Assembly: GCA_001295905.1 (NCBI GenBank) | Contig: LJHT01000002.1 | Span: 1-61,769, forward strand | Origin: a beta proteobacterium AAP51 | GTDB taxonomy: Bacteria; Pseudomonadota; Gammaproteobacteria; Burkholderiales; Burkholderiaceae_C | DNA length: 61,769 nucleotides | Direction: 5' to 3' | Shown: positions 24,432 through 55,528 of the stretch, one piece after another | Layout of the letters: every line of letters starts with the position of its first letter | Position numbering within the stretch: the stretch's first letter is position 1 | Program-made: the position numbers and the translations under genes | Notes under the pieces: model-generated | The model's database searches: none | The model's input: only the letters and a program-made list of their open reading frames with translations | What the model was told of the DNA's origin: nothing

Positions 24432-24472
24432 GGGCCGTTAGCTCAGTTGGTCAGAGCAGAGGACTCATAATC
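24432..24472 (+). pseudogene. 5' half of the resident tRNA-Ile2/Met (CAT), cut by the element
   Basis: Acceptor strand, D arm, 5' anticodon stem and anticodon (CAT, 24466-24468) of a CAU-anticodon tRNA are present. The sequence then turns into unrelated DNA after AATC and has no T arm or 3' acceptor strand. The missing 40 nt are at 55489-55528; joined, the two halves give a normal 77-nt tRNA with CCA. Resemblance of the anticodon and variable region to ileX suggests tRNA-Ile2 (lysidine-modified) rather than elongator Met; initiator tRNA is excluded, since the anticodon stem lacks three G-C pairs. Confidence 0.9.
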
Positions 24473-24480
24473 TTGCGCGC
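24462..24480. other. attL core
   Basis: The anticodon loop CTCATAA (24464-24470) is preceded by host tRNA stem bases and followed by TCTTGCGCGC (24471-24480). That last arm is the exact reverse complement of GCGCGCAAGA at the right junction (55474-55483), so the free element's attP would be two 10-bp inverted arms around the 7-bp loop sequence. Confidence 0.85.
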
Positions 24481-24538
24481 CAACTGACAACTGTTCGCCT
24501 TTCTCCTTGCCTGACAAGACGTTAGAGAGCGTACCTCG

Positions 24539-24610
24539 GTGCCAAACTCGAAATTTTGGCACCACGTTGGCACTTCTGAGCCTGGCGTATGAACCGCGTC
24601 GCGGTGCCAA
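24539..24610. repeat. Integrase arm-type sites, left cluster (TTGGCAC x4)
   Basis: Four copies of the 7-bp motif in both orientations: GTGCCAA at 24539 and 24604, TTGGCAC at 24556 and 24567. Five more lie near attR. Repeats clustered on both sides of the core fit binding sites for the N-terminal domain of a lambda-type integrase. Confidence 0.65.
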
Positions 24611-24900
24611 GCCCGCCAAGCCCTCCAAGCCCGCCAAGAGCATAAGGATACGAGACACTGGGTGGGAACCAGAAGACCGCGGCTGAGTGCTGGGCGGCTG
24701 CGTCGTAGTGAGGTGCTCCGAGCTCGGCCCGCTTCATCGGAGTCGGATGGAGGTGCGCCGAAGGGGTTGCTAGTGGCCGGGCCTTCGGTCATCTCGGCGC
24801 CAGCCCAACCCTGCCGCCCCCGCACCTTTTCACGGCGGAGCACATAGTCTGGCTAGATGTAGCCGCGGGGCCGCTGAAGTCGCCGCAGAGTGCCGGTCGC

Positions 24901-24906
24901 TAGAAT
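24901..24906 (+). promoter_or_regulatory. -10 box of the element-borne tRNA
   Basis: TAGAAT, 10 nt ahead of tRNA position 1 and identical to the host tRNA's putative -10. The -35 is not clear. Confidence 0.45.
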
Positions 24907-24916
24907 TGCCGAGAGT

Positions 24917-25198
24917 GGGCCGTTAGCTCAGTCGGTTAGAGCAGAGGACTCATAGCGAAAGTTGTGCACCGTCGCGGGAAACCCGACGTGTGAATGGCGT
25001 CAAATTCGGCGAACCCTGACGGCCCTCGGGCACAAGGCAACGCCGAGCCAAGCCCCGCTAGCGGGGAAGGTGTAGAGACTAGACGGCGCCTGCCTACAGA
25101 CCCTCAAGGTCCATGGTGAAGGCATAGTCCAGGGAGCCCCGAAATGGGCGCAAACCGGAATCCTTTGGTCGCAGGTTCGAGCCCTGCACGGCCTACCA
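24917..25198 (+). tRNA. tRNA-Ile2/Met (CAT) interrupted by a group I intron
   Basis: Exon 1 is 24917-24953 (ends with the anticodon CAT at 24951-24953); exon 2 is 25159-25198 (starts AATCC, ends with CCA). Joined, they give a 77-nt cloverleaf of the same length as the split host tRNA and nearly identical. Differences are two D-loop bases and a T arm with compensated pairs (GCAGG/CCTGC instead of GTTGG/CCAAC), so this is a diverged, functional-looking copy, not a recent duplicate. G1 faces U72 (wobble) in both copies. Splicing of the 205-nt intron is required to make a usable tRNA. Confidence 0.9.
24954..25158 (+). ncRNA. Group I intron (tRNA type, IC3-like), 205 nt
   Basis: Inserted after CAT in the anticodon loop. 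Blocks characteristic of the Azoarcus tRNA-Ile(CAU) intron are visible in order: internal guide GTG pairing with exon CAT (U-G at the splice site), P2 with GAAA loop, TCAAATTCGGCGAA (P3-P4), GGCAACGCCGAGCCAAG (P4-P6), GGTGTAGAGACTAGACGGC (P7/P3'), GTGAAGGCATAGTCC (P8/P7'), a P9 hairpin with GAAA loop, and the terminal CAAACCGG with omega-G at 25158. There is no internal reading frame for a homing endonuclease. The assignment rests on remembered similarity to the Azoarcus intron; splicing is inferred. Confidence 0.93.
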
Positions 25199-25631
25199 CT
25201 CCTTGTCCTGCGCAGCTTGCTGCGCGGCTGCAGCCAGGTGGCTTGGCGCTGCTTTCCAGAGAGCGAGCGGCGGCGATGACGCCAGTCAGTGTGTCCGCGC
25301 TACCCGGGCGGGGTTGGCGCCTTGGGCTGCGCAGCACGTGCCGGAGCGGGTGACAGGAATGAGGTTGCTGGCTGGCGATGACTAATTCCTAGAGAGCTTC
25401 TTCAGCTCCATCGAAGGCGGGGCGGGCGTCTTCTTAACCGTCCCCCTAGCTCGTCTTCCCGCCTTCGGTGGGCTGAAGCATCCCGAAGCCGCCGAGGGAG
25501 CTGAGGTCACTGTCCCCCCGTCTCAGGCGACTGAGCCGCCTGAGACCCACCAATCGTTCGCAAACCCCACCCTAAAGTTCTGGTTCAGAGTGCCGATAGC
25601 CGAACTTCCCACGGCTACAACTTTGACCCAG
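25199..25631. other. Gene-free region with strong inverted repeats
   Basis: It starts after the element-borne tRNA. A GCGCAGC-TT-GCTGCGC hairpin (25210-25225) follows the tRNA at once and could end its transcription. Then comes an interrupted stem (25400-25421 with 25458-25478; 7 + 10 pairs) and a perfect 10-bp stem GTCTCAGGCG/CGCCTGAGAC (25520-25546). No gene recognised. Confidence 0.6.
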
Positions 25632-25961
25632 ATGAGCAAGACCCTCGCCAAAAACAACTCTGCCATCGTCGCCCTCGTGCGTGACGCCTACGGCAATGGA
25701 CTCAGCGGCAACACGGAGCGTAGCCTGCGCTTCATCCGTGAGGCCCTCAAGCTGTTGGAAGCGCAGCACGAGGTCATTGAGACCAAGGGCGACGCGCGCA
25801 AGCAGCTTGCGTTCGATGCGCTCAACAGAGAAGCAGCGCAGCAGAGCGGTTGGCCAGAGTTCGATGGCAGCCAAGTTCAGGAGAACATCGAGAAGTGGGC
25901 CAAGAAGGGTCTAACGCTCGACCTTCTGCCAGGTCTGCCAGCTGAAGAAGCCGCCGCCTGA
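25632..25961 (+). CDS. Small hypothetical protein
   Basis: A 109-residue soluble, mostly helical protein (MSKTLAKNNSAIVALVRDAY...). A GTG at 25590 in frame could add 14 residues, but the ATG at 25632 begins the charged helical part. No family recognised. It lies between the tRNA-intron region and the convergent recombinase pair. Confidence 0.6.
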   Translation: MSKTLAKNNSAIVALVRDAYGNGLSGNTERSLRFIREALKLLEAQHEVIETKGDARKQLAFDALNREAAQQSGWPEFDGSQVQENIEKWAKKGLTLDLLPGLPAEEAAA

Positions 25962-26049
25962 AAGAAGCGCCCCTCAGCAGAGAGGCGCAGTCGCTCCGAT
26001 AACGCAGTCCGAACCATCCCGACTGGGCGGCCGTCCGGCTAACCCATGC

Positions 26050-26529
26050 CTAAGCCAATTCGTGGGTGAGGGCGACTCTCATGATGCTCGACATGGAAAC
26101 CTCGCGGCCGAGGTGTCTGCCGAACAAAGTACAGAGCCGGCGCTGCACGTGGTTAGATTCCATCAGCAGCAGGCTGTCTGACGGCCGTCTCAACAGCCGC
26201 GGCCTGGCCTCAATGACGTAGAGACCCGCCAGGTCCGCCACGAAGCCCGCCAGACGGTACTCGCTCCTATGCCCGGCTGAGGGCGCAGCGCTGGTCGGCA
26301 CATACAGCCATCCACCATCCGCAGCCTGTTGAAGGCTGCCGGAGTTGTCCGCACGCCATGTGACGCGCCAGAGCTCCGGTAGGCGTTGGGGATGATGAGC
26401 AGCCCATGCGACGAGCAGGAGGTCCCGCACCCAAGCCGCCTGCCAATACCCGGACCTCGGTGCCTCCGGGTCGTCGCGCACCGCACGTAACACTACCAGC
26501 GATTCGTCTGCAGAGATGGGGCGGCTCAC
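26050..26529 (-). CDS. Truncated tyrosine-recombinase-like protein
   Basis: A 159-residue protein whose central part (WVRDLLLVAWAAHHPQRLPELW...) resembles the box-I region of the adjacent large recombinase (WTRDVLVLAWLTANPLRVNHF). It ends at a region like box II (SMSSIMRVALTHELA) and has no catalytic tyrosine segment. It is therefore either an inactive accessory paralogue or a decayed copy. It overlaps the upstream gene by 4 nt (ATGA), which argues for co-translation and against mere decay. Confidence 0.6.
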   Translation of the reverse strand: MSRPISADESLVVLRAVRDDPEAPRSGYWQAAWVRDLLLVAWAAHHPQRLPELWRVTWRADNSGSLQQAADGGWLYVPTSAAPSAGHRSEYRLAGFVADLAGLYVIEARPRLLRRPSDSLLLMESNHVQRRLCTLFGRHLGREVSMSSIMRVALTHELA

Positions 26530-28649: not shown

Positions 28650-28652
28650 CAC

Positions 28653-29494: not shown

Positions 29495-29642
29495 AGTTGC
29501 TCGCATTGGATGCCGCGTTTGCAGTCCGACCAGCAGCAGGCCCAGCAGTGCGAGTCTGCACGGGTGTACGGCTGCCGAGAGTACTGACTGCAGGGGAGGC
29601 CGCCGCCTGCAGCATCTATGCATGGGCTGGGGCCACCTGTTG

Positions 29643-30005: not shown

Positions 30006-30063
30006 CGCCAGGTGGGTCGAGTTGGTCAGCAGCTCTCGCACTGAACGGTTCGGCGGCCGTTGG

Positions 30064-36244: not shown

Positions 36245-37600
36245 TTACTCTTCGGTCGCTCCGTCCAAATCTCCGCCGGAGAGGGCTGGAGATGCGGCGG
36301 AGGCCTCCTCCACGACGACCTTCTTGCTGTGGTTGATTAGGTTGACCAACAAATCCTCTTCCGAGACAGGATAGACACTCCCTCGAACTTGTTTGTACTC
36401 CTTCCGAGCATTGATGATGAACTGCTTGCTGGGAGCGGCCACATGCGCGTAGACGAGGTCGTCAAGCAGGGTAACGTTCTCCTTCGCTGTGACCATCTTG
36501 TTATTGGATGTGTTGAAGACAGCAGTCCACGGTGCTTGGCCAATCTGCCACGGAAGCTTGGAGAGACGCTCCATCACCGCATTCCAAGGCAAAACGTCCT
36601 GCTCAGCAATCTGGGCAGCCGCCCGTGCTACCGCCTTCTGAATGACGGGACGCATGAAAGCATGTCCGCCAGCTTCGTTGTTTTTCGGAAAACGAATGTC
36701 TTTAGCGGACGTCCCAGCCAAGAGTGATTCTCGGATATTGCCTGTGGCCTTTAGCAGGTCGTCTAAGCGCTGGCCGATGGTCACGTAGGCGGACTCAAGA
36801 ACCTCATCGGAGGGCCGCGCGTCGCGCTTCTGCATCGCCGGGTCGAGTCCGAAGCTGAGCGAGCGAACCATGTCATACAGGTTCGCAATCGTCGTGAACG
36901 CGCGCTTCTCTGACTGAGAGACGTTTCCGCTCGCGAGCTTCAACTCGCCCTCCTCTCCCTGCCGAGTGAAGACCTTAATGACGCCTTGCGCAGAAAAGAA
37001 CGGGTGCTCCGTGATAAGTCGTCGAGTAACGATGGCTGGCCCGTCGTCTTCGTCCAGCACGATATTCTCTGCGCCGGTCGTCGCCTTCGCATTGCGGTTG
37101 ATGTTGGTGAAGAGCCTGCGAGTTCTGACCTTGCCTTCCTCAGTGTCGTAGTGCGACACCATGATGACGCAGATATCTTCTTGACCAATCTCCGGGTTGG
37201 ATTTGAGCGCCTCTTTGATGGCCTTCAGTCGGTGCTGGCCGTCAAGCGCGAAGTACTGCTGAGTGCCGTCGAACGTCAGGACTCCGAACTGCTTGTCGAT
37301 GCCAGAGAGGACGCCGTCGGGGTCGTCCATTGACACGCTCATGTACTGCGGTGCCCCTCCCCAAGCCGCCACGAGCAGCGCGCCGAGAAAGCGGTGCTCG
37401 GACTTCATCAGATAGTCTTTGATGGCTTGAGTCCGATGGCTGAGGCCCCGCTGAATCAGCGTGTTGAGGTCCGCGTTCCCTCCGAGCTCGTAGGCGAACC
37501 CGACTTGCCGCGCTACCTCTGCGTATTTCATGACGCAGATGTAGTAGTCCCAATCGCCAACTTTCGCCTTGAAGGCAGGAATGAATGTCTTGTTCGTCAC
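36245..37600 (-). CDS. DGQHR domain protein, DndB-like
   Basis: A 451-residue protein. The hallmark FALDGQHRLKAIKEAL motif is near residue 115, followed by LFTNINRNAK. DGQHR proteins include DndB, which regulates and binds phosphorothioation loci in Dnd systems. A GTG start at 37600 overlaps the TAG of the GIY-YIG gene, so it is the last gene of the five-gene minus-strand operon. Confidence 0.8.
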   Translation of the reverse strand: MTNKTFIPAFKAKVGDWDYYICVMKYAEVARQVGFAYELGGNADLNTLIQRGLSHRTQAIKDYLMKSEHRFLGALLVAAWGGAPQYMSVSMDDPDGVLSGIDKQFGVLTFDGTQQYFALDGQHRLKAIKEALKSNPEIGQEDICVIMVSHYDTEEGKVRTRRLFTNINRNAKATTGAENIVLDEDDGPAIVTRRLITEHPFFSAQGVIKVFTRQGEEGELKLASGNVSQSEKRAFTTIANLYDMVRSLSFGLDPAMQKRDARPSDEVLESAYVTIGQRLDDLLKATGNIRESLLAGTSAKDIRFPKNNEAGGHAFMRPVIQKAVARAAAQIAEQDVLPWNAVMERLSKLPWQIGQAPWTAVFNTSNNKMVTAKENVTLLDDLVYAHVAAPSKQFIINARKEYKQVRGSVYPVSEEDLLVNLINHSKKVVVEEASAASPALSGGDLDGATEE

Positions 37601-38196
37601 TACGGGCTCCTAAAGGCGGGTGCGGGAGGTGAAACTCTGACCTTCGCTCGTCCAGCGACGTTCAGAGGGGGGTTGAGAAGCTTGATGAGAGTACGCTCAA
37701 CATCAGCGATTTTTGAGTGGTCTTCGATGGTGCAGAACCAATACTGTAGTGGGTAGATGGCCAAGTACCTGGAGAGTCGCTCCGAGCGCGTCGCAGCGCG
37801 GTCCTCTCCCCATAGTTGAGCCAGGTCGCCACCAACGTACTTGGAGTACTCAGCTTTGTAGCGGTCTCGCAGTGTCTTCCTGCTCAGCTGGTCACCGGCT
37901 CTGCCAACATACAGGACGAGCCTGGGATGAAAGTTGGGCCCGCTCGCTGTCTGCAGTGTTAGCGAGGACTCAAATAGGAAAAGGTACACACCACACTTTT
38001 CAGGAATTTGCTTCCATAGAGTGGGGGTTGCTTTCCGTATCTCCCACTGACCACCGCAGTCCTTGAGCTGGCTAGAAATCGCTTCGCAGAACTCCTCGTC
38101 CATCTGATATGTAATCGGATGGTCTTGGTTCAGCCCGACGGGCGGGCTCATGCGATGAAGGGCGAGTTGACGCTTGACTGCCTCCGCTGAACTCAT
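37600..38196 (-). CDS. GIY-YIG nuclease-like protein
   Basis: A 198-residue protein. The core CGVYLFLF then LVLYVGRAG gives the GIY and YIG strands; downstream Arg residues, then a Glu in ADVERTLIKLLNPPLN, fit the catalytic Glu and the Asn of GIY-YIG enzymes. The catalytic Tyr of the first strand is in GVYL. Probably a structure- or modification-dependent endonuclease. It lies between the PAPS-reductase-like gene (82 bp away) and the DGQHR gene (1-nt overlap). Confidence 0.7.
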   Translation of the reverse strand: MSSAEAVKRQLALHRMSPPVGLNQDHPITYQMDEEFCEAISSQLKDCGGQWEIRKATPTLWKQIPEKCGVYLFLFESSLTLQTASGPNFHPRLVLYVGRAGDQLSRKTLRDRYKAEYSKYVGGDLAQLWGEDRAATRSERLSRYLAIYPLQYWFCTIEDHSKIADVERTLIKLLNPPLNVAGRAKVRVSPPAPAFRSP

Positions 38197-38278
38197 GGTC
38201 TACCGTTGCTTCCAGACTGTGTGCTCTCTTCACTCCACCGATGTTTGAGTGCGGTGGTCACTCGCGGCATGGTAGCGG

Positions 38279-39121
38279 CTACTTGTGGCAAACGAGGCAG
38301 GCGCCTCCTCCCTCATCCTCCAGGTAGAGGTCGTCGATATCGACAGGTTCAATGGGCACAACCCGCAGTGGGTTCGGCCTTCTCCGGGCCATCTCGCGCT
38401 GCTTCCGAATCTCGAAGTCTGTGACGATTTGGGCGACGCGCTCGGGCTTCTCGAGGTCCGTGAGGGGCTCGCCATGGCTCCAGGTGAAGGGTGAGCCATG
38501 CTCGAGAGCATTTTTCTCGTAGGTCTTCGCGTCTTCAAACGCCTCAGGGTGCGTGTCCTTCAAGCGTACCCACTCAATTTTTTGCTGGAAGAAGCAGAAG
38601 GTACAGCCGCTCCTGGACCGCCAGTCGTAGTATTTGGGCAACCCGAGCCCCGAGGCTTCTAGGATTTCGAGAACGCCAGGCTTGTCGATGCCGCTCTGTC
38701 TGAAGGGCATCACCACTTTCAGATTCTCGTGCTGAGCCACCATGCCTTCGCGGTGGTCTTCATCGGAGCGGATGGCCACGTAGCTGTAGACGGTGTCGCC
38801 GGCGTCCAGCGAAGGCTTGACCCACTGCTTGAACGGCTCCAGCTTGAGCTTGCGGGTGCACCACCGAGTCTGCGGCGAGGGCAAGAAATGGTTGTAGGTA
38901 CGCAGCCAGAAGTCGAAGTCCCGGTGTGGATTAAGGTACGTGATGGGACGCCCGAGGAAGCCCTCCAGCTTTCCGAGGAACTCATACACCTCCGGCAGTT
39001 CTTTACCAGTGTCGGTGAAGAAGTACTCGATGGGTAGCTCCGGGTGATGAAGGCTCATGTAGACAGCCAGCGCTGCGCTGTCCTTGCCTCCGCTGATGCC
39101 CAGTACGTGTCGCTCAGCCAT
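38279..39121 (-). CDS. PAPS-reductase-family protein, SspD/DndC-like
   Basis: A 280-residue ATP pyrophosphatase-type enzyme. The PP-loop SGGKDSAALAVYM is at residue 10; cysteine motifs WCTRKLKLEPF and SGCTFC fit an Fe-S or sulfur-relay role. In DndC and SspD this enzyme activates the DNA backbone for sulfur insertion. It overlaps the ATPase gene by 8 nt. Confidence 0.8.
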   Translation of the reverse strand: MAERHVLGISGGKDSAALAVYMSLHHPELPIEYFFTDTGKELPEVYEFLGKLEGFLGRPITYLNPHRDFDFWLRTYNHFLPSPQTRWCTRKLKLEPFKQWVKPSLDAGDTVYSYVAIRSDEDHREGMVAQHENLKVVMPFRQSGIDKPGVLEILEASGLGLPKYYDWRSRSGCTFCFFQQKIEWVRLKDTHPEAFEDAKTYEKNALEHGSPFTWSHGEPLTDLEKPERVAQIVTDFEIRKQREMARRRPNPLRVVPIEPVDIDDLYLEDEGGGACLVCHK

Positions 39122-42100
39122 TTTTCTTCCCCTTTTTAAGCTTGCCCAGAGTCATCGCGCCAGCCTCGGCCAGCGCAGCCAGGATGACCTCAGGCCGTTC
39201 GCCAACGGTGTCGGCCAGGAAGGCCTTAACGAGGCGGTCGACCGCGGGCGTATCCTTTTCTGCGATATCAACGTAGCCAGACCTGTCTTGTCCATGGCTG
39301 GCGCCGAACACCACGCCGAGCACTCGTCGGGTAGAAGGGCGATTCCGGAGTGGCGCCATGGCTTCAGCTTTTCGGAAGTCCACGGCCCAGCTCGCAAGGG
39401 CACCCATCGCTGCATCGATATCCCTGTCGACCCACTGTGCGGACGGCTTGCTGACAGCAAGGCTGATTAGCCCCTCGATGACCGTATCGGTCTCGTCCGC
39501 CAGTTCAAGTCGGCCAGCGAATGCATCCAGTCGGAGGTCGCCAGTGATTCCCTTGACAGTTCCAGCCCGCTGCTGCAGTTCCTCCAGGGGGCGACCGCCG
39601 TGGTCTAGGGCGTCGAGCAAGTGCAGTCTTACTCGCCGCAGCATCGCTCCGTACGCGCCGGTTAGCTCGTCGGTGACTTCAGCCAATCGCCGATTGATTT
39701 CTTCAGGGTCCCGGGCTTCGAGCAGCGTAGGAAGGTCTGCGAACAGAACCTTGTGCGGGTCGTTCGCACGCAACAGCATCCCGCGCACCTCCTGCGCCCG
39801 CTTGGACACCGTCAGGGTGCGCTTAGTCCACTCAGGCAACCCGACGATGATGCTGACCAAGCCTCGTGCGACGTCTAGCGGAGCCGCCTCAACCTCGGTG
39901 TTGCTGCGCTGGGCCACAGACGCAGCCAGCGCACCGACCAGCTTCACCTGGTCCTTAGACGCCTCGACGTGCTTGAACGCGATGCGGCTGGGGTCCAACA
40001 CCCACTCATCGACGACCGCTTCGCTGAGCTCCGGCGTGAAGGCTCCCGCGACGTAGAGCGCCAGTTGCGAGCGGTGCGCCATGAAGAAGGCCAGGGCCAG
40101 CACTGGCATGACCCCGCGGCGGATGCCGTACGGCGCATCGGCCCAGTAGGCATAGAGGTCGGCCAGAGTCGTGGTCTTGCCGTCCTTCAGAACTTCATGG
40201 CGCGTTGAGTACCACCATGGACTGAACTGCTCCCATTTTTTGGTGGCGTGGGGGTCAGTGAAGCCCCAGCTATCGCCTGACAACCGCCGGTGAAGCCCCG
40301 GGTTGTTGAGAATGGTGAAGTAGAGACCTGCGTCAGCGGGAAAGCCGTCGTAGCCGAGCTTTTCCTGGAGCGCGTGGCTGACCATCCGGTACATCAGGTC
40401 TTTGCGTGCTTTGACGGAGTTGCTGGAGGGCTCTTCTCGGTTGATGAGCTCGCTGAAGATTGGAGGCGTCTTGCTGTAGACCTCGCGCGCAATCTCAGAA
40501 GCAAGAACGGTCAGGGGCTTGTCGTGCTTCGGGTTGACGGAGTTCCCTTGGCGGTACCAGAGGCACGTGGAGAAGGCGTCGGCTAGCTCTTCTTCCAGCG
40601 ATGAGCGAACTGCCTCAATGCGACCAACCAATTCACGACGCGCTACCGGGTCGCCGTGCAGCTCCGGGTGCGTCTTGCTCACCCGTTCCGCAGCGGCCAG
40701 CTCCAGGCTCAGCTCGGCGATGCGTTCAGCATTCTTTGGCGTACCCAGCAAGAGCGTCTCGCTCGCTGTGGTCGAAGCATGGCGAACTCGATGCTCGGCT
40801 GATTTCGTCCGAGTACCGAGCGAAGGCAGACACATGACGAACGTGCCGACGCTACCGGGCTTGTGCTTGTAGCTCTCAGCCAGCTGTTCGATGCCGTCCA
40901 ACCGAGCCAAGGCCCGGTTGAACCAGCGCATCGTGCCTGTTTCCTGATACAGCCTCTTGGCTAGTACCGGTTGCAGGTCGCTCAGCGTGGAGATGCGGTC
41001 CAGGTCGGGCTCACCAATCTCGGCCCGAGCCAGGCGCACCGCGCCTTCAATGTCGAAGTCGCTGCCGGCGTAGATGCCCCATGCGCCAAGGTGCTTGCGC
41101 TCGATGAGCACTTTCCACTCGGCCAGGTCCTTGAGCAGCTGAGGGATGGACTGCTCGTCTACGCCTCGAACTGAAACCTCCAGGACATGGTTGTCTGCGA
41201 CCAAGCCAGACCCGCTCCGGAAGAGCTCAATCAGCGCGATGGCTTTGGTCAGTGCGACGTGTCTCTCGGTCCCCTTGGACTCTGCGCGCTCCACAGCCTC
41301 GCAAGCTTGCGCCCACCGGTGGCCGTCTGGCGAGGCCAGGATTGCTGGCTCAAGGTTCGCGCGGAGGTAGTCCCAGTAGTCAGCGGGACCGTACATCTCA
41401 GACCAGTCAGCGGGGTGGCCGTTCAGGTGCTCGATGAACCCGAGCGGCTCCCGAGAGGCGAGAAAACCGAAGGTGCTCCGCTCGTTCTGGCCAAATTTGC
41501 GCCGGGAGATTGGGCCAAGCAGCGCAGCTGTGACTGGGTGAAGCGGCCAGCAGGCCTCGAGCGAACCTGCGAGGCTGTCCGGCGTGCCGGGACGGCGAGC
41601 CTTGATTGAGTCTGCGACGCGCTTGGCGAACCTGGCAGCTGGCCGAAGGTCCGGCGGGTCAGTTGGCTTGATTGCCCGGCCGACCAGCTCGATGACCTCG
41701 TCGGCGCCCGCCACCAAGGGAATGTCGATGTAGCGGCCTTGGACCTTCGCCCACTCGTCGCGCGCTTCTCGTCCCAGGCGTGAAGCGTAGGCGTCGAAGG
41801 CTTGATGCAGGATGCCAACGACGACCAGCTTGCGGGAGCAGCGACTGGCGCTTTCAGCGAGCTCCTGGAAAAAACCGATATCCCCGCCTTCCATGGCGGT
41901 CGCTTCCAGAAGCTTTCCGAGCTCGTCGATGATGACCAGAACGCCATTGGGATGCCGCTCGGCCTCGTCAACCAGTTCTGCAACGACGTCTGCGTTCTTG
42001 CGCCGTGAAGGGCTGACACCCCGCGCCTCGGCAAGAGCGTTGCTCAGCTCAGTTCGTACATCCGCGCGCTTGCCAACGACAGGGACAACTAACCAACCGT

Positions 42101-42461
42101 CGTTCTTCGTAGCGAAGGCGCGCTGAACAAGGCTCCCTTCGGACAAGCCCAGCACCTGTCGAGCCTTCGCCCGAATCTTTGGGTTTGGACTGACGAGCGA
42201 GCAAAGGCCCAGAGCCAACGAAGACTTGCCTCCGCCGTAGGGCCCCGTCCAAGTGAAGGCTCGTTGGTCGGTCTCGACAATCTGCTTGGACATGTTCTCC
42301 AGCAGCGAACGAGCCGTTCCCTGGCAGATGTAGCCAGAGAGCGCGTCTTCGCGACCGAGGTCCGTGTCGATGCGGACCGAACGCAGGAACTGCCGCGAAA
42401 TCGAAACGACGTCTGATAGCGTCTGCTGGGGAGCGGTCGTGGAGCGCGTGGCCTTAGGCAT
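39114..42461 (-). CDS. Large AAA-type ATPase, SspC-like
   Basis: A 1115-residue ATPase. Walker A is TWTGPYGGGKSSLALGL at about residue 75, and Walker B is VLVIIDELGKLLE. The N-terminus precedes the P-loop with a conserved R-rich start. The rest is largely alpha-helical with no other motif recognised. By gene context it matches the ATPase of single-strand phosphorothioation (Ssp) loci. It overlaps both neighbours by 8 nt. Confidence 0.72.
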   Translation of the reverse strand: MPKATRSTTAPQQTLSDVVSISRQFLRSVRIDTDLGREDALSGYICQGTARSLLENMSKQIVETDQRAFTWTGPYGGGKSSLALGLCSLVSPNPKIRAKARQVLGLSEGSLVQRAFATKNDGWLVVPVVGKRADVRTELSNALAEARGVSPSRRKNADVVAELVDEAERHPNGVLVIIDELGKLLEATAMEGGDIGFFQELAESASRCSRKLVVVGILHQAFDAYASRLGREARDEWAKVQGRYIDIPLVAGADEVIELVGRAIKPTDPPDLRPAARFAKRVADSIKARRPGTPDSLAGSLEACWPLHPVTAALLGPISRRKFGQNERSTFGFLASREPLGFIEHLNGHPADWSEMYGPADYWDYLRANLEPAILASPDGHRWAQACEAVERAESKGTERHVALTKAIALIELFRSGSGLVADNHVLEVSVRGVDEQSIPQLLKDLAEWKVLIERKHLGAWGIYAGSDFDIEGAVRLARAEIGEPDLDRISTLSDLQPVLAKRLYQETGTMRWFNRALARLDGIEQLAESYKHKPGSVGTFVMCLPSLGTRTKSAEHRVRHASTTASETLLLGTPKNAERIAELSLELAAAERVSKTHPELHGDPVARRELVGRIEAVRSSLEEELADAFSTCLWYRQGNSVNPKHDKPLTVLASEIAREVYSKTPPIFSELINREEPSSNSVKARKDLMYRMVSHALQEKLGYDGFPADAGLYFTILNNPGLHRRLSGDSWGFTDPHATKKWEQFSPWWYSTRHEVLKDGKTTTLADLYAYWADAPYGIRRGVMPVLALAFFMAHRSQLALYVAGAFTPELSEAVVDEWVLDPSRIAFKHVEASKDQVKLVGALAASVAQRSNTEVEAAPLDVARGLVSIIVGLPEWTKRTLTVSKRAQEVRGMLLRANDPHKVLFADLPTLLEARDPEEINRRLAEVTDELTGAYGAMLRRVRLHLLDALDHGGRPLEELQQRAGTVKGITGDLRLDAFAGRLELADETDTVIEGLISLAVSKPSAQWVDRDIDAAMGALASWAVDFRKAEAMAPLRNRPSTRRVLGVVFGASHGQDRSGYVDIAEKDTPAVDRLVKAFLADTVGERPEVILAALAEAGAMTLGKLKKGKKNG

Positions 42462-43383
42462 AGGCCGTCTCCAGCATCTTGAGCTTGTAGTCCTGTAGGC
42501 TGTTTAGGGCAGGGCCCTTTCGTGTCACCTGTCTGATGCCTGCCTGCTCGACCCACTGCAGATTGCCCTTGGAGAGGGTCTCGAGCGCGATGAGGCGGTC
42601 AGCGACAGCGTTCTCGTCGAGCTTGAACACACGCCCAGGCGAGCCGAAGTCATGCGCAACACGGTCGAAGTCCATGACCGAGCCGGCATGCGGCATGCGA
42701 CTCCAGTAGTCGAGCAGGGCATAGGCGAACACCCCATCAGGCAGAGACTTCTTAGCTCCCCGGCGGAACTCGAAGGTACCTTTGGCGTTCTGCTGAATGA
42801 GCCCGAGCTCGCCCAGAAGCGGCTCGCTCATTTCCTCGGGCGAGTCGCCTCCTAGCCGCGGCACATAGCTGCGAATGCAGCACTCGACGTCGCGCTTGAG
42901 CGTCGCAAGCGAGATGCGAAGCTTGTACTCGGTGATGAAGCCTGAGAGCGACTTGACGAGGTGCTCGCGGTCGAAGACCTGCTGCACGACGTGGTTGAAC
43001 AAGTACCACCACGTCGTGGTCTTTTCTGGGGTGCTCGCGACTTGCCAATGCATCAGCCACGTGGTGGCCGGGTGCTCGCAGTACAGGTCACGGCCGTACT
43101 CCGGCAAGAACAGGTAGTGGCCTAGTCCGGTCGGGACGTACCCTTCCTTGGTCTCCTCCACGACGCCGCAAGCCGTTGCCCAGAACCGTATGGACATGGC
43201 CATGTTCTTGCCGACCCCGAAGCGCACGATGGCGTCTTCCCCGGCGAAGACCGAGCGGTGTGCAGGCTCGCGAGTCTCGGTGACTGCGTCGTAGGCCTTG
43301 CGCAGCCACAGCTGCCGTAGCGGGAAGGTCTCGTGGCCGGAGAACTGCGGCTGCTTATCTTGTTCTAGGAGGAGCTCTGTCAT
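42454..43383 (-). CDS. DUF4007 family protein, SspB-like
   Basis: A 309-residue protein. QFSGHETFPLRQLWLRKAYDAV near residue 13 and IRFWATACGVVEE are typical of DUF4007 proteins, the family to which I assign the SspB nickase. First gene of the operon; a CTGT-N8-ACAG box lies about 100 bp upstream. No cysteine desulfurase (SspA) gene is nearby. Confidence 0.72.
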   Translation of the reverse strand: MTELLLEQDKQPQFSGHETFPLRQLWLRKAYDAVTETREPAHRSVFAGEDAIVRFGVGKNMAMSIRFWATACGVVEETKEGYVPTGLGHYLFLPEYGRDLYCEHPATTWLMHWQVASTPEKTTTWWYLFNHVVQQVFDREHLVKSLSGFITEYKLRISLATLKRDVECCIRSYVPRLGGDSPEEMSEPLLGELGLIQQNAKGTFEFRRGAKKSLPDGVFAYALLDYWSRMPHAGSVMDFDRVAHDFGSPGRVFKLDENAVADRLIALETLSKGNLQWVEQAGIRQVTRKGPALNSLQDYKLKMLETAYA

Positions 43384-47132: not shown

Positions 47133-47411
47133 ATGAAAGGCGAATATCTCACACGCGAGCAGCTTGCCTCGCTCTTCCACTGCACCACAAGAACTATCCA
47201 CAACTACGTCAAGTCAGGCGCGATACCTTCCCCAATGAAGCTTGGGCGGCGGCAACTGTGGCATCGGACTGACCTCATCGCCTTCATTGAGGCCCAGCAG
47301 GCAGTGCTGGAGCCGCCCGCGCCGGCGGCCATTGCTGGTGCCGATGTGCCCGCAGCCAGGCTGCCGGTGGGCAGCGTTGAGCCCATGACGAGCGCCGAGA
47401 GTTCCAATTGA
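47133..47411 (+). CDS. AlpA/MerR-like helix-turn-helix protein (excisionase type)
   Basis: A 92-residue protein. The first half, EYLTREQLASLFHCTTRTIHNYVKSGAIPSPMKLGRRQLWHR, is the HTH_17/AlpA domain, with the usual wing and Trp. The C-terminal 40 residues are disordered (A, P rich). Could be an excisionase or a regulator of the following gene. ATG 47133 has AGGAAA ahead; it overlaps the next gene by 4 nt. Confidence 0.75.
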   Translation: MKGEYLTREQLASLFHCTTRTIHNYVKSGAIPSPMKLGRRQLWHRTDLIAFIEAQQAVLEPPAPAAIAGADVPAARLPVGSVEPMTSAESSN

Positions 47412-48454
47412 AGAAGGTCTACGAAGTTGCCAGAACCCTCGACGTTACGGCGCTTGAACTACCTTCGGACGCTCCAGACGACCGCTTTACCGCGGAAGCG
47501 GAGCAGACGGAAGATGCGTTGGTGCCGCTGCCGATGGCCATTCCGCCAGCGCGTCATCCGGAAGAGCGCACTCGACGGCGCCTCGTGGGACGCCTGCATG
47601 CCAGCGAGCGCATGCTGAAGGACTACAGCCGAGACTTGCGGGAGGCTGGCGGTGACAGCGAAGCTCGGCGTGAAGCCTACAAGGCGTTGGTCCGATTCAA
47701 TGGTGAGATTGAGGCCATCAACGAAACTCTCAGGCGAGATTTTGTACCGCAGCATGGTCCGAACCAATTGCTGGGCGCCGACGCGCTTCTCGTGAGCCGC
47801 CTCTTCAATGTACGAAACAAGAATGTGCCGAGACTGCCCGAGGTAAGGCTCGAGCTTCGGTACTCGGAAGGTCAGTCCCTCGTGTACACCGGACCTGAAC
47901 TCCGGCAATCCGAAGGCGTTGTCTTCATGTCCCTTATCAACATTTTGCGAGATTATCCGGCCGGACTGGTCGTTTCATTCTCACCCGGAGACCTTTGCAA
48001 AGCTCTCTATGGTCATTACGACGGGCACACGCGGAATCAGCTGAAGGACTCGATTATTCGACTAATGCGAGGAGTGCTGACATTTCCGAGTTTCAGCGTC
48101 CAGCTTGCTCAGAAGTTCACTCATCCAAGCAAGGGCCCGTGGTCTGTTGCAGTCGATGCATGCATCGTCCGATTGTTCCAGGAGCTGCAATACACCTGGT
48201 TGGACTTCAAACTTCATCGAAGCCTGACAGCAGGCGTAACAACCTGGCTGTACGCGTACGTTCGGACCCAGCCCCGGCTTCGGCCAATCCGACTCGAGAG
48301 TTTGATTGAGCTTTCTGGCTCTGACGCCAAGTCGGCGAAGGCGTTCAAGAGCTCGCTCTACAGAGCGCTTGATGAGCTGGCGGTGAAAGGTGTAATCGCT
48401 CCGGACTTCGTCGTCACGGCAGATGTTCTTCACTGGCGAAAGCTCAAGCCCTGA
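47408..48454 (+). CDS. TrfA-like replication initiator
   Basis: A 348-residue protein. Central signature LLGADALLVSRLFNVRNKNVPR and VVSFSPGDLCKAL fit the TrfA family of IncP-type plasmid initiators. A C-terminal winged-helix-like region (LRPIRLESLIELSGSDAKSAKAFKSSLYRALDEL) follows. A TTG start at 47408 overlaps the AlpA-like stop. Suggests the element replicates, or once did, as a circle. Confidence 0.72.
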   Translation: MKKVYEVARTLDVTALELPSDAPDDRFTAEAEQTEDALVPLPMAIPPARHPEERTRRRLVGRLHASERMLKDYSRDLREAGGDSEARREAYKALVRFNGEIEAINETLRRDFVPQHGPNQLLGADALLVSRLFNVRNKNVPRLPEVRLELRYSEGQSLVYTGPELRQSEGVVFMSLINILRDYPAGLVVSFSPGDLCKALYGHYDGHTRNQLKDSIIRLMRGVLTFPSFSVQLAQKFTHPSKGPWSVAVDACIVRLFQELQYTWLDFKLHRSLTAGVTTWLYAYVRTQPRLRPIRLESLIELSGSDAKSAKAFKSSLYRALDELAVKGVIAPDFVVTADVLHWRKLKP

Positions 48455-48598: not shown

Positions 48599-48607
48599 GA
48601 GGACAAC

Positions 48608-49243: not shown

Positions 49244-49354
49244 CCACCCTTGATTCGGAGCCCGCGGCGTTTGCTGCGGGCTCTTTCCTTTGCGCTTGTC
49301 TGTTCGTGGTCAGATATGCTCGCGCTCGTCGCATTCGGACAACGGAGAACTGGT

Positions 49355-49726
49355 TTGGCAACTCGTAAGAAGACCCGTAGCCTCGAACAGATTCAAGCTG
49401 AAATCGCGAGGCTGGAACAGGAAGCGAAGGCTATCCGCGACGCTGAAGTTGGCGATGTTGTCGCAAAGATGAAGGTTGCCATCAAGCACTACGGCTTGAC
49501 TGCAGCCGACTTGGGGCTAGCGCCGAAGGCCGGGGCGAGGGCGCCCAAGGCCACCGCCAAGGCGGGGAGGCGCAGTGCGCCCAAGGGCAAGGCCTCGAAG
49601 ACTACCCGACCCATTAAGTACCGCGACGATGCTGGCAACACGTGGGTGGGCCATGGCAAGCGACCGAAGTGGTTCGTGGACGCGCTCGCTGGCGGGAAGA
49701 CCGCTGAAGACTTGTTGGTGAAGTGA
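49355..49726 (+). CDS. H-NS family histone-like protein
   Basis: A 123-residue protein with an N-terminal coiled-coil oligomerisation helix (SLEQIQAEIARLEQEAKAIRD), a basic linker and the C-terminal DNA-binding motif IKYRDDAGNTWVGHGKRPKWF. H-NS-like proteins on mobile elements often silence the element or interact with host H-NS. A TTG start with GGAG 8 nt upstream gives the expected length; an ATG at 49316 is also in frame. Confidence 0.82.
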   Translation: MATRKKTRSLEQIQAEIARLEQEAKAIRDAEVGDVVAKMKVAIKHYGLTAADLGLAPKAGARAPKATAKAGRRSAPKGKASKTTRPIKYRDDAGNTWVGHGKRPKWFVDALAGGKTAEDLLVK

Positions 49727-51219: not shown

Positions 51220-52710
51220 GTGTCTGACACCATCAAGTTCACCCCAAGCCCGGCCTTCGACCGGGTCGCCCAGGCGCTCGGCATAGGCGTCGAGTCGTTC
51301 TGGTTCAACCAGTACCCGGCCGAGCAGGCAGGCAAGCTCGAAGCCCGCATCAAGATGGCTGCGAAGCTGCTCGGTAAGGTCACCGACCTACGCCACAGCC
51401 AGACGCTGGACGCAGTGGCCCAGGCACTCCGCTTTCGTGCTTGGCATCACTTGTCGGCGCACCTCGGCCGAGCTGCGGAGTTCAAGCCAGGGCCGCTGCC
51501 ACCTGGCTGGCTGGACGCCCTCAGCGGCACCGTCGTGTTGACGGTGGAGCCTGAAGACGACGTCCGCCTGCCTGAACCGCAGCTCGATGCTTTTGAGGCC
51601 CTCGGAGAGACGCTGGCAATGCTGACCGACACCCCCAAGCAGCGGGTGCTCGACGGCGTTTCGGCTGCCTTGTGTGGCGGAAAGTCTTGGCGAGAGGTCC
51701 GCAATCGAAGCCCGCTGAACGCGGTCGAGCCGCTGTATCGCTTCCAAGTCTTCGGGCAAGACGCCGAAGGTGGCGTTGGCGGATGCTTCGAGTTGAGCCC
51801 TGCGTGCCACCAGCTTGTCGATGAACTCGACGATTGCTGGCAGGGCTACGACGAGTTCACCAAACCGCAGAAGAAGCGCGCTCGGGCGTGGGTCGAGTCC
51901 GTTCTTATGGCCCAGCCAGGCTTTTTTGAGGGCGGGCTGGCGCTGGCGTGGATGCAGCGTGATGCGAAGGAAAGCGAGGCAGTACAGACGGCCGCTCGCT
52001 TCGTGCGCGCTGCGGAGGCCCTCATCCCGAAGGGATTCAAAGGGCGCATTCTTTGGGGCCACCTCGGAAATCGTTTTTATCACCGGTTGCTGTGGCTCCA
52101 GGCGGGCTTGAACCACGACAACGGCGCCAGCGAAGCTGCAGCCAAGGTCGCGCGCAAGCTGCTCAGGCTCAACCCCGGCGACAACCTCGGTGTGAGGTGC
52201 GTCCTGCCGTTCCTGCACCTTGAGCAAGGCGAGGTGGCGGCAGCGCGTCGGTCACTGAAGGCAATCGCTGACGAGCCGGGTCTGACTGCTGCCGCCACGC
52301 GAGCATTCGTTGCCTTTGCAGAGGACGAAGCACAGCTGTTTCGACGCGAGTTGGCGACAGCGCTGTTCACGCTGCCTGTCATGAGGGCGTTCCTGTTGAA
52401 CGACCCAAAGGCGCTGCCGCCCGGGGAGTCCGGCTATCGGTCGGTGCAGCCGGACATGGAGACGTTCGCTGAGTTTGCCTGGCCAACCTACAACATTGTT
52501 CCTGGGCTGAGAAAGGCATGCGAGGCCATGCTGGCTGAGCCGGCGGTTCGTCAGGCGGAGCGGGAGCTTGCTACCTACTGGGAAGGCTACTGGGTAGCCC
52601 GACAACAGGGCAGGGCTGTGCGCACCGGGTCGGCCGAGGGTTGGCAAGCCCTTCTGGAAGCCTCCATCGACCGAGTTGCGCCACGGACGACGCGGGCCAA
52701 GCGCACATGA
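51220..52710 (+). CDS. Hypothetical helical-repeat protein
   Basis: A 496-residue, largely helical protein. The N-terminal half starts with VSDTIKFTPSPAFDRVAQALG and KVTDLRHSQTLDAVAQALRFRAWHH; the second half (VLPFLHLEQGEVAAARRSLKAIADE) has TPR-like helical pairs. No catalytic motif recognised. A GTG start at 51220 has AGGAG 5 nt upstream. It overlaps the HEPN/OST-HTH gene by 4 nt, so the two are co-translated. Confidence 0.6.
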   Translation: MSDTIKFTPSPAFDRVAQALGIGVESFWFNQYPAEQAGKLEARIKMAAKLLGKVTDLRHSQTLDAVAQALRFRAWHHLSAHLGRAAEFKPGPLPPGWLDALSGTVVLTVEPEDDVRLPEPQLDAFEALGETLAMLTDTPKQRVLDGVSAALCGGKSWREVRNRSPLNAVEPLYRFQVFGQDAEGGVGGCFELSPACHQLVDELDDCWQGYDEFTKPQKKRARAWVESVLMAQPGFFEGGLALAWMQRDAKESEAVQTAARFVRAAEALIPKGFKGRILWGHLGNRFYHRLLWLQAGLNHDNGASEAAAKVARKLLRLNPGDNLGVRCVLPFLHLEQGEVAAARRSLKAIADEPGLTAAATRAFVAFAEDEAQLFRRELATALFTLPVMRAFLLNDPKALPPGESGYRSVQPDMETFAEFAWPTYNIVPGLRKACEAMLAEPAVRQAERELATYWEGYWVARQQGRAVRTGSAEGWQALLEASIDRVAPRTTRAKRT

Positions 52711-53558
52711 CAGACGACCCGCGCCCAGCCATGCAGCGCGATGTACAGCGCCTGCTGGGCAGGTGCATGCTGCGCATCCAGCAGTACGAGCGTCTGATGA
52801 AGGCCATGCTTGCGCATCACGAGCTGGCAGGCCCAGTCGAAACGCTGGAAGGTCAGCGCTCGACCCGCATCGAGAAGCTCTCGGACAAGAGCTTAGGTAC
52901 GCTGGTCAAGGCACTGTTCGAGACCTACGTCGTACCCGATGGGTTTGAGCGGGACTTGCTTCCTGACGACAAGGTACCCTCTGACCGCATCTCGATGGCA
53001 TTCAGTTTCCGAATGTCGATGGCGCCCGACCGATGGGCTCAGACCAAGGAAGCTGTTGAGGACTTGGTCGCGATGCGCAACGACCTTGTTCACCACCTCA
53101 TCGACCGGTTTGACGTGTGGAGCGATGAAGGGTGCGTCGCTGCAGTGCGCCACCTTGAGGACAGCTACAGCCGCATCGACCGGCACTACTTCGAGCTTGT
53201 TGAGTGGGCAACAAACATGGAGAAGGCCAGAGAGGCGGCAGCTTCATTCGCACAATCGCAAGCCTTCCGTGACTTGGTGGTCAACGGAATCGCGCCGGAT
53301 GGTTCCTTCGAGTGGTCGAACACGGGCATCGTCAGAGCACTGCGTCAGGCTGTCGTCGCGAACGCCGATGCGGGGTGGGCCCGGCTGGACGAGGTTCGCT
53401 CTTGGCTCTCCACCCATGAGCCGGAACAAACGCCCGAGACGTACGGGTGCCGCTCATGGCCTCAGGTGGTCAGTGAGTCGAGGCTGTTCGACCTTCAGTA
53501 TCGAACGTCGGTGGAGGGCCGCAAGGAAGCGTGGATTCGAGAGCGGGGACGGTCGTAG
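52707..53558 (+). CDS. HEPN-like/OST-HTH (LOTUS) protein, putative RNase
   Basis: A 283-residue protein. The N-terminal ~180 residues are helical and contain MRNDLVHHLIDRFD, which fits the R-X4-H (RNDLVH) motif of HEPN ribonucleases. The C-terminal ~75 residues (IVRALRQAVVANADAGWARLDEVRSWL... then TYGCRSWPQVVSESRLFDLQ) fit an OST-HTH/LOTUS RNA-binding domain. It may be an RNA-cleaving toxin or defence effector. It is downstream of, and overlaps, the 496-residue gene. Confidence 0.72.
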   Translation: MTDDPRPAMQRDVQRLLGRCMLRIQQYERLMKAMLAHHELAGPVETLEGQRSTRIEKLSDKSLGTLVKALFETYVVPDGFERDLLPDDKVPSDRISMAFSFRMSMAPDRWAQTKEAVEDLVAMRNDLVHHLIDRFDVWSDEGCVAAVRHLEDSYSRIDRHYFELVEWATNMEKAREAAASFAQSQAFRDLVVNGIAPDGSFEWSNTGIVRALRQAVVANADAGWARLDEVRSWLSTHEPEQTPETYGCRSWPQVVSESRLFDLQYRTSVEGRKEAWIRERGRS

Positions 53559-53722
53559 GTAGAGGACCCAAATAAGGGCGCCTGGAAATCGCCGTCGATA
53601 GGCAGCCCTCTTGGAGGTGCATCGGTCCTCTGGTGGGTTTTTTGGGTCACGGCCACTGCTTGGACCGGCTGACGAAAGCTGCATGGCGTTTCGCAGGCGC
53701 CTCAAGCGTCGATTGTGGGGCG

Positions 53723-55219
53723 TTAATCCTCGCTAGTGGCTCTCAGCACCTGCTCCAGTATCGCCGGAAGGTTAGCTTCTTCGAGCTGTGACGCTGTCTC
53801 GCTGGGCATAGCAGCGACCTGCATCACCTTGGCGCAGACTTCTTCCGCTGCTTTCTGCATCCGCTCTTGGGCCTCATCAGTTTCCATGTACTGGACCGTG
53901 ATGCCAGGGATGTTGACGGTCTCCGCGAGACCCTTGGCGGAGTGGAGCATCAGCAGCGCCACCCCGAAGACGTCACCCGCTGCAGCTGCTCCGATGGTCG
54001 CAAAGGTCCGACGCAGGTCAGAGGGTGTGAAGTGCAGGTCGAGAACATCTTCGACAGTGGTCCAAGCTGCTCGTGGGTCAGACAGCACAGCGTCCTTCCG
54101 GGCTTTCCCACGAGTCGGCTTCGGGGAGTACCAGACCGGGCCCGCAGGGTCCGGGGCAAATTCGCGACGCTCTTTGAGGATACTCAGAGAGAGTTTGGAC
54201 AAGGGAACCCGCAGGGGCGGAGCGTCTGCCGGAGTCTTAGCGCCCCTGCGCTTGGTGCCGCGCTTGTGCGGAGAAATGACCAGCTTGCCGCTCTCGAAGT
54301 CAACCTCCGAGAACTGAAGGTTTACCATCAAGCTGCGTCGAAGGCCGGTCAGGACATACAGGCGGAATTGGTCACGCCACCAGGGAGCCATCATCTGGTC
54401 AGAAGCGCGCCAGGCACGCCCGAGCTTCGACAGCGGAATGCGGCCCCTACGCTCAACTTTTGGGCCGGTCAGCTTCTTGGCGTCGCGCGCAGGGTTCTCG
54501 GTCTTGGGGATGCCTTCCAGTCCCCTGTACTTGTGGCCAATCTCGTACAACATGGAAGCGGTGTTGAGCACCCCGACAAGGGTGTCCGCCGCAACGGGTC
54601 CCCTGAAGACTGGTACCTCGACACCTGCTTCGTTGGCCTTCTTTCCAACAAGAAGCTTGCCAAGCCGCAGGTCGTGCGTGTACTTCGCCCAAAACGCGTA
54701 GTCCAGCTCATCAAGGTACCTGCTCCGCAGGTGCCCGAGGTAATGCTCGAAGTTCCGCGTGTCTTTGGTTCGCGTGTCTGCCCGGTGGTGCGGCTTCTCG
54801 ACGTCGTAGTAGGACCAAGCCTTCTCCAGAGTCAGGCGCTCCGACTTGACCCCATCCTCGCGCACGTGGCTCGCTGCTCGCCTGGCCGCGAGCACCGCGG
54901 CCTTGGCGTCATCGAGCGACATGACCTGGTCGCCCTTCTCGACCTCGGTAGCCAAGCCGAGGTCTGTTCGGTCGCTTTTGTGCGACTTCGTGCCATCAGG
55001 GTTCACCACCGTGACCTTGAACCGGTGAACCCAGGTTCTGCGGACGGTTCCGTCCTTCGTCCTGGGCATCACGCGGCAAAAGAGCCCAGCTTGCTGTGCA
55101 GATGGGTATTCAACCGCTGACTTTTCCGGCACCGGCAGCATCAGTAGCTGTCGCACGGAAGAAAACGTTGGTAGCCGCCCGCGCTTGGGGACGACCTCTC
55201 CAGTGACTCTCATGTCCAT
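53723..55219 (-). CDS. int: Tyrosine-type site-specific integrase
   Basis: A 498-residue recombinase whose gene starts about 255 bp from the right junction. An N-terminal arm/core-binding region is followed by a catalytic domain: box-I Arg in YVLTGLRRSLMVNL, box II FTPSDLRRTFATIG (Arg, with Ser/Asp in place of the usual His-x-Leu), and a Tyr nucleophile in GITVQYMET. It is the natural candidate for anticodon-loop integration. The start at 55219 is chosen; a frame extends to 55384. Confidence 0.88.
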   Translation of the reverse strand: MDMRVTGEVVPKRGRLPTFSSVRQLLMLPVPEKSAVEYPSAQQAGLFCRVMPRTKDGTVRRTWVHRFKVTVVNPDGTKSHKSDRTDLGLATEVEKGDQVMSLDDAKAAVLAARRAASHVREDGVKSERLTLEKAWSYYDVEKPHHRADTRTKDTRNFEHYLGHLRSRYLDELDYAFWAKYTHDLRLGKLLVGKKANEAGVEVPVFRGPVAADTLVGVLNTASMLYEIGHKYRGLEGIPKTENPARDAKKLTGPKVERRGRIPLSKLGRAWRASDQMMAPWWRDQFRLYVLTGLRRSLMVNLQFSEVDFESGKLVISPHKRGTKRRGAKTPADAPPLRVPLSKLSLSILKERREFAPDPAGPVWYSPKPTRGKARKDAVLSDPRAAWTTVEDVLDLHFTPSDLRRTFATIGAAAAGDVFGVALLMLHSAKGLAETVNIPGITVQYMETDEAQERMQKAAEEVCAKVMQVAAMPSETASQLEEANLPAILEQVLRATSED

Positions 55220-55481
55220 CGCAGTCCTATCGGCGGATGCGTTCCGCACTTGAGACCACGGCGTGCCCGGTGCCAAGCTTGTGGCACCTTCTTGGCACTT
55301 TCGGCGCTCCCGTATAAGCAAAAACGGGGTGTTTGGCACTCGACCGTGGGCAGATTCCTGAGTGTTCAGGCCGTCCGGTGCCAAGCTGCGAAGGGATAAA
55401 AGTCCAATAGCGTCAATGGTTTATACGCTTCTTGGCACTCTTAGCCTTCATGGCGGCCGAATCGACCTACAAAGCGCGCAA
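55220..55481. other. Integrase promoter and right end of the element
   Basis: No gene supported. It contains TTGGCAC/GTGCCAA sites at 55270, 55292, 55333, 55378 and 55432, and the attR arm at 55474-55483. Integrase binding here could autoregulate its own promoter. Confidence 0.6.
55270..55438. repeat. Integrase arm-type sites, right cluster (TTGGCAC x5)
   Basis: GTGCCAA at 55270-55276 and 55378-55384; TTGGCAC at 55292-55298, 55333-55339 and 55432-55438. They mirror the four copies at the left end. Confidence 0.65.
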
Positions 55482-55492
55482 GACTCATAATC
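55474..55492. other. attR core
   Basis: GCGCGCAAGA (55474-55483), then CTCATAA (55484-55490), then host anticodon-stem bases TCCTT. It contains the 11-bp direct repeat with attL. The crossover lies in or next to the shared 7-bp loop sequence. Confidence 0.85.
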
Positions 55493-55528
55493 CTTTGGTC
55501 GTTGGTTCAAGTCCAACACGGCCTACCA
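55489..55528 (+). pseudogene. 3' half of the resident tRNA-Ile2/Met (CAT)
   Basis: AATCC anticodon-stem strand, variable region, T arm (GTTGG-TTCAAGT-CCAAC), acceptor strand ACGGCCT and ACCA. It is 40 nt long, the exact complement of the 37-nt 5' half at 24432-24468. It has no promoter of its own and no 5' half nearby. Confidence 0.9.

Follow-up and report, generated by a model that had tools for sequence, protein, structure and literature searches.

In a 61,769-bp stretch of the genome of beta proteobacterium AAP51 (GenBank assembly GCA_001295905.1, contig LJHT01000002.1), here termed the window and lying entirely on one contig (C57), the gene for a tRNA with a CAU anticodon is divided into two parts by a 31-kb integrated element, within which lies a second copy of the tRNA interrupted by a group I intron (Table 1). 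We favor, with moderate confidence, the reading that the element split the host tRNA-Ile2(CAU) gene and carries an intron-interrupted copy that would supply the tRNA after predicted self-splicing, with the intron likely shielding this copy from the element's own recombinase. The splitting and replacement of a tRNA gene is a known class of mechanism; the intron is the new part.

A split tRNA gene and its intron-interrupted copy

The two parts of the host gene share an 11-bp core, GACTCATAATC, with a core-to-core distance of 31,020 bp, and the cut falls in the anticodon loop. When the parts are joined, ARAGORN recognizes a well-formed 77-nt CAU tRNA, in agreement with the initial annotation, which had described a CAU tRNA with halves about 31 kb apart. 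ARAGORN labels CAU tRNAs as Met on the basis of the anticodon; we take both the host tRNA and the copy to be tRNA-Ile2 from their resemblance to known tRNA-Ile2 sequences. The further claim that the gene is restored at neither junction also holds, because a tRNA-Gln is the sole ARAGORN call in the window and no CAU tRNA was called at either junction. The classical layout, in which the tRNA is rebuilt at one junction, was found at neither of the two. The G+C content is 60.1% in the element and 69.5 to 69.6% in its flanks. Joining the inner sides of the right and left attachment sites (attR and attL) yields the attachment site of the element (attP), GCGCGCAAGA-CTCATAA-TCTTGCGCGC, which is a perfect 10-bp inverted repeat flanking the 7-nt anticodon loop CTCATAA. 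Given the inverted arms of attP, the recombinase gene beside attR, and the recurrence of the same split in other genomes, the split is beyond chance.

An unoccupied, intact tRNA was sought at this locus in relatives, as the initial annotation had proposed, and was recovered on one side. The same 77-nt tRNA lies intact 57 bp past hrcA in both of the closest sister genomes (hrcA identity, 94%); the DNA to its right is unlike that of the window, and the empty site is therefore matched on the left only. Most of the 71 same-genus loci read likewise have hrcA in front of the tRNA. Within the assembly itself (5.10 Mb in 144 contigs, rated 100% complete, with 52 tRNA hits), a second intact tRNA-Ile2(CAU) would have undermined the proposal, and no further clear one was found by BLAST or among the tRNA calls, apart from a low-scoring CAU tRNA (39.8 bits) of uncertain identity on contig C106. 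The other CAU tRNAs read, at loci L026 and L016, we take for the initiator and elongator tRNAs. A BLAST search with the host tRNA returned eight matches. Two are the host halves, two are the exons of the copy, and the other four fall on contigs C46 and C8 where lysine, phenylalanine, and Ile(GAT) tRNAs lie. The low-scoring CAU tRNA belongs to an array of 11 tRNAs called by ARAGORN at positions 39000 to 41600 of C106 (L034), several of them low scoring, and this array is possibly located on another mobile element of the same genome.

The copy inside the element spans 282 nt (24917 to 25198), including the intron. Its joined exons form a 77-nt CAU tRNA according to ARAGORN and are identical to the host tRNA at 69/77 positions, with none of the eight differences in the anticodon arm. 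It had been described as a full, diverged copy with which the element, having broken the tRNA, compensates for the loss; the break at both junctions and the diverged tRNA with the same anticodon stand, but a 205-nt group I intron within the copy had been missed, and ARAGORN, when run on the window, overlooked the copy. The intron exceeds the gathering score of RF00028, which is 50, and was the sole group I intron found when the genome was scanned with this family. In an alignment with 25 relatives, the invariant core is kept, and 21 of the 43 predicted pairs show compensatory change among the 26 introns. The intron resembles the Azoarcus tRNA-Ile ribozyme. DNA homing was discarded as the means of its spread, as 205 nt looks too short for an endonuclease gene. 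A promoter and terminator scan found nothing; a TAGAAT box, seen by eye, lies 5′ of both the host tRNA gene and the copy and hints that the copy may be expressed.

Judged by sequence, a divergent tyrosine recombinase is encoded next to attR. Residues R349, K378, R458, H481, and Y499 are invariant in all 26 aligned members, including the window's protein; the position of the box II histidine is a serine in the window's protein and H, Q, or S across the family. The true start of the gene may lie downstream of the first TTG. Copies of the motif GTGCCAA/TTGGCAC cluster just inside the two ends of the element (9 of the 15 sites in the window), which likely fits the expected arm-type sites of an integrase. 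A protein search with the integrase gave 68 matches, the window's own protein among them, and a hidden Markov model of the family matched 1 of 762 open reading frames (ORFs) of the comparison loci, in a restoring element of a same-genus genome (G005). Searches with the protein P0001 gave no match at an E value of 1e-10 in the other 398 of the 399 genomes of the order and no match in plasmid records. On the IMG/VR contig IMGVR_UViG_3300031088_000037 (L313/G501), an integrase 41% identical to that of the window adjoins an orphan 3′ half of tRNA-Ile2. At the opposite end of the contig, the apparent end of rpoD (read by eye) precedes the 5′ half of a host tRNA, and about 160 bp past this half lies an intronless tRNA-Ile2 whose stem, TCGA-CTCATAA-TCGA, has the inner pair flipped (CGA..TCG). 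The integrase family of the window thus appears, from these sequences, to target tRNA-Ile2.

The element's own tyrosine recombinase most likely split the host tRNA in the anticodon loop. Because the exons of the copy share the host anticodon arm, an intronless copy would amount to a host attachment site (attB) within the element itself, some 490 bp from attL. In the DNA, the right half-site is broken by the intron, which would be gone from the RNA, and the copy would supply tRNA-Ile2 once the intron self-splices, as predicted. Other elements and phages appear to escape by altering the stem pairs next to the loop, and we infer that a replacement copy has to evade the integrase of its own element, through either a stem change or an intron. 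The host tRNA-Ile2 is presumably essential, and an addiction-like effect of the replacement copy would be a fair corollary; since the host tRNA would be rebuilt by clean excision, death would be expected from imprecise loss alone.

Replacement copies in related bacteria, virus contigs, and phages

Within the genus, an intronless CAU tRNA of the Ile2 type is present among the loci read in 71 of 81 genomes, as 69 residents and two replacements. The remaining ten comprise the present genome (G000) and nine in which no intact copy was seen, several of the nine being incomplete assemblies. BLAST found no tRNA-Ile2 in G069 and G046. All 69 residents keep GGA-CTCATAA-TCC, and the outer stem pair varies in 7/69. 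The intron occurs in 2/81 genomes (G000 and G059), each time in the copy beside a split tRNA, in a scan with stricter filters by which weak matches can be lost. The G059 assembly is probably mixed, because an intact copy is also present after a second hrcA. Two genomes, G045 and G024, carry an orphan 5′ half together with an intronless replacement that reads CGA-CTCATAA-TCG; G045 has a decayed 3′ half at a distance of about 8 kb, and none was found in G024. Two others, G005 and G041, hold classical restoring elements at the same tRNA.

Replacement copies were also sampled without choosing for introns, by scanning the 399 genomes of the order for the pattern AGAGCAGMGGACTCATAAV, which occurs at 11 places in 10 genomes (reversed control, 0). 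Three of the matches (L352, L357, and L358) are 5′ exons of intron-bearing tRNAs at which no orphan half was seen. The other seven loci include four with an intron-bearing replacement (L353, L354, L359, and L360). The introns of L359 and L360 are of a different group I type, are inserted between positions 33 and 34, and score 34.0 and 30.3 bits; the introns of replacements thus interrupt this loop at either of two points, 36/37 or 33/34. At L355 and L356, no 3′ orphan was found within about 39 kb, and at L361, there was no copy in the stretch read. Together with G000, G059, G045, G024, and G501, the sample amounts to 11 replacements, 6 with an intron, 3 with a changed inner stem, 1 with a change in the outer pair only, and 1 unchanged. 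Introns are therefore enriched in replacements relative to residents (6/11 versus 0/69; P = 1.5e-6), as are inner stem changes among intronless nonphage replacements (3/5 versus 0/69; P = 1.5e-4), with P values that ignore relatedness among the genomes, set replacements from a wider range against residents of a single genus, and count G000, the starting case.

A scan for the intron core across one genome per species for 84,980 species gave at least 119 stretches, 80 of which are listed as loci; the counts that follow refer to the listed matches. Among the 81 intron matches in these loci, 61 are flanked on either side by tRNA-Ile2 exons, and for 57 of these the upstream sequence extends to 450 nt or more. 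Within 450 nt upstream, 27/57 have a same-strand orphan 5′ half of this tRNA, compared with 0/57 for the same length downstream or antisense and 0/67 for an orphan half near intronless residents of the genus. The 27 loci, which are not mutually independent, include Polynucleobacter (9), Methylotenera (3), and Limnohabitans (2) as well as Gulbenkiania, Sterolibacterium, Leptothrix, Rhodoferax, Rhizobacter, Massilia, and Methylopumilus; one labelled Akkermansia looks misbinned. In Gulbenkiania mobilis, an 8.7-kb stretch is bounded by the intron copy together with orphan 5′ and 3′ halves, and in Polynucleobacter MWH-HuK1, two intron copies lie between orphan 5′ and 3′ halves 60 kb apart. The idea that every such island carries its own integrase was dropped, as none of 10 ORFs from the Gulbenkiania and Polynucleobacter islands matched an integrase family in Pfam. 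The same core pattern occurs in 14 stretches of IMG/VR; in one of these, L322, about 590 bp separate an orphan 5′ half from an intron-bearing copy downstream. The introns of L208, L322, L359, and L360 score 30.3 to 43.9 bits, below the Rfam gathering score. At L257, L260 to L265, L271, and L374, islands are stacked at tRNA-Ile2 and accompanied by several orphan halves and by truncated introns; restriction, AbiEii, and Fic genes lie in or beside L257. Separately, 1,263 plasmid records, mostly from Escherichia and Klebsiella, match the intron-bearing tRNA (query positions ∼57 to 216) at about 73% identity.

For phages, 16 integrase regions were examined, 9 with a scorable tRNA and 7 without a tRNA called in the stretch. 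Scoring compared 13 positions (3+7+3) of each phage's own tRNA with an analyst-assigned attP, rather than with the host attB. PMC10865867 describes OneUp, Mollymur, BrutonGaster, and Cain as tRNA-dependent and singles out Daredevil as an exception; the remaining four, Wintermute, Bantam, SpeedDemon, and DatBoi, are related phages of the same layout. All eight intronless phage tRNAs differ from attP, by 2 to 5 of the 13 positions: Cain by 2, OneUp, SpeedDemon, and BrutonGaster by 3 each, Mollymur, Bantam, and DatBoi, whose tRNAs are identical, by 4 each, and Wintermute by 5. Daredevil, a Gordonia phage, is the sole match among the nine, with no difference from attP, and its tRNA is the one with an intron. 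This tRNA-Lys(TTT) lies within 200 bp of attP, beside the integrase gene, its joined exons match attP over 16 nt, and its 238-nt intron has a group I core. The identification is based on a BLAST match and an alignment of the core; Rfam gave no call. According to PMC10865867, Daredevil integrates in a tRNA-Lys gene without rebuilding it, has no tRNA of its own, and forms clear plaques, and the target tRNA is named differently in the text and in a figure legend. The phage described there as lacking a tRNA thus has an intron-split one.

Alternative explanations

Several observations weigh against the intron as a shield. An orphan half within 450 nt is absent from 30/57 of the listed intron copies. 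At L067, L071, and L100, the intron-bearing tRNA itself is apparently split at CTCATA, and the intron therefore does not protect against all integrases. On virus contigs L325, L328, L331, and L333, the stem of an intron-bearing CAU tRNA is also changed, so that an intron and a stem change can co-occur. The intronless replacement of L356 (G432) is changed in the outer stem pair only, the same pair that varies among residents, and the presumptive replacement of L355 (G449) is both intronless and unaltered; the latter led us to reject a universal rule that intronless replacements are always altered. The clear plaques of Daredevil, moreover, do not fit a working hidden tRNA. A rival explanation holds that the replacement is real but the intron is a passenger, which spreads among anticodon loops through reverse splicing or along with the element and brings it no benefit. 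Such a passenger would account for the intron copies without a nearby orphan half and for L355, as well as for the matches of the core pattern at loci whose exons are not from tRNA-Ile2 (10 rows classed as "other" among those listed). Against a passenger stand the altered inner stems of intronless replacements, the divergence of every scored intronless phage tRNA from its attP, the presence of an intron in the one phage copy that matches its attP exactly, and the enrichment of introns in replacements, subject to the limits of that comparison given above. On balance, we consider the passenger explanation doubtful, if a serious contender.

Two further explanations concern the island rather than its intron. 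The island could be decayed and the copy a remnant, with AUA codons read by the CAU tRNA of C106 or with a tRNA-Ile2 gene lost between contigs. The 144 contigs and the CAU tRNA of uncertain identity in the C106 array leave room for this; against it, the replacement tRNA and intron core look intact, the catalytic residues of the integrase are kept, the C106 tRNA reaches only the low score given above, and BLAST returned no further Ile2-type gene from an assembly rated complete. We judge decay improbable. An artefact of assembly or binning is harder still to credit: the genome is a draft, but the rejoined attP is a perfect inverted repeat, and the same layout is found in isolates of Gulbenkiania mobilis and Polynucleobacter and in the IMG/VR contig.

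The favored reading, in which the intron shields the copy, can be extended to a broader proposal that we advance tentatively and hold to be slightly short of probable. Elements that break an essential tRNA would hide the attachment core of the replacement behind a self-splicing intron, a form of ribozyme camouflage; integrative elements would then be a main natural home of the Azoarcus-type tRNA-Ile intron, and the introns that interrupt the loop at different points, some in bacterial islands and one in a Gordonia phage, would be convergent solutions. If true, one of the best-studied ribozymes would gain a function, self-splicing introns would be linked to site-specific integration, and the divergence of replacement tRNAs from the host gene exactly at the integrase site would be explained. 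Since tRNA finders seem to overlook intron-bearing replacements, as ARAGORN did in the window, tRNA-dependent integration may exceed present counts.

Relation to known systems and cargo of the element

Splitting and replacing a tRNA gene has been described as tRNA-dependent lysogeny (Guerrero-Bustamante and Hatfull 2024; PMC10865867). The two systems share a tyrosine integrase, an attB in the anticodon loop, a core of about 10 bp, a tRNA that is not rebuilt, and an element-borne tRNA of the same isotype, among the examples being tRNA-Ile2 in Gordonia phages. Whereas the system described there belongs to phages of Actinobacteria, the present one is a TrfA element with no phage structural family in its Pfam-scanned ORFs, and its replacement is interrupted by an intron, a word that the article contains once, in the title of a reference. 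According to a 2014 review, the phage introns seen until then were all in protein genes. No paper on intron-bearing replacement tRNAs of integrative elements was found among the papers listed by the literature searches, which covered few subscription articles.

Classical tRNA-integrating islands (Islander) likewise combine a tyrosine integrase with a tRNA target, and the restoring elements of G005 and G041 use the same tRNA, but in such islands one junction retains a whole tRNA and the other has a 3′ fragment, whereas here a whole tRNA is present at neither. The Azoarcus-type (IC3) intron of tRNA-Ile(CAU) occupies the same tRNA, is inserted after CAU, and has a very similar core; it was described in a bacterial tRNA gene, unlike the intron reported here, which interrupts an element-borne replacement.

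The Pfam scan of 28 ORFs of the element detected no phage structural family and no relaxase or type IV secretion system family. The cargo includes genes for DNA phosphorothioation defense (Table 1).

Table 1. Coordinates of features in the window and of the Daredevil intron
Feature	Position	Strand	Evidence or remark
hrcA, host gene adjoining the target tRNA	23335..24363	+	Pfam HrcA
5′ part of split host tRNA-Ile2(CAU), attL	24432..24472	+	Shared core 24462-24472
Four GTGCCAA/TTGGCAC sites inside attL	24539..24610	.	Likely integrase arm-type sites
Replacement tRNA-Ile2, 5′ exon	24917..24953	+	Ends in CAU anticodon
Group I intron (205 nt) in anticodon loop, after CAU	24954..25158	+	Rfam RF00028, 52.5 bits
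Replacement tRNA-Ile2, 3′ exon	25159..25198	+	CCA encoded
SspB, SspC, SspD, and DndB-like protein (DNA phosphorothioation defense)	36245..43383	-	PADLOC, Pfam
TrfA-like plasmid replication initiator	47408..48454	+	Pfam PF07042, 3e-13
H-NS-like protein	49250..49726	+	Pfam PF00816
Tyrosine recombinase (integrase) beside attR	53723..55384	-	Pfam PF00589, E 1.2e-4, below the Pfam curated cut-off
Five GTGCCAA/TTGGCAC sites inside attR	55270..55438	.	Likely integrase arm-type sites
3′ part of split host tRNA-Ile2(CAU), attR	55482..55528	+	Shared core 55482-55492
Daredevil intron in tRNA-Lys(TTT)	L336 6032-6269		tRNA and intron unannotated in the stretch read

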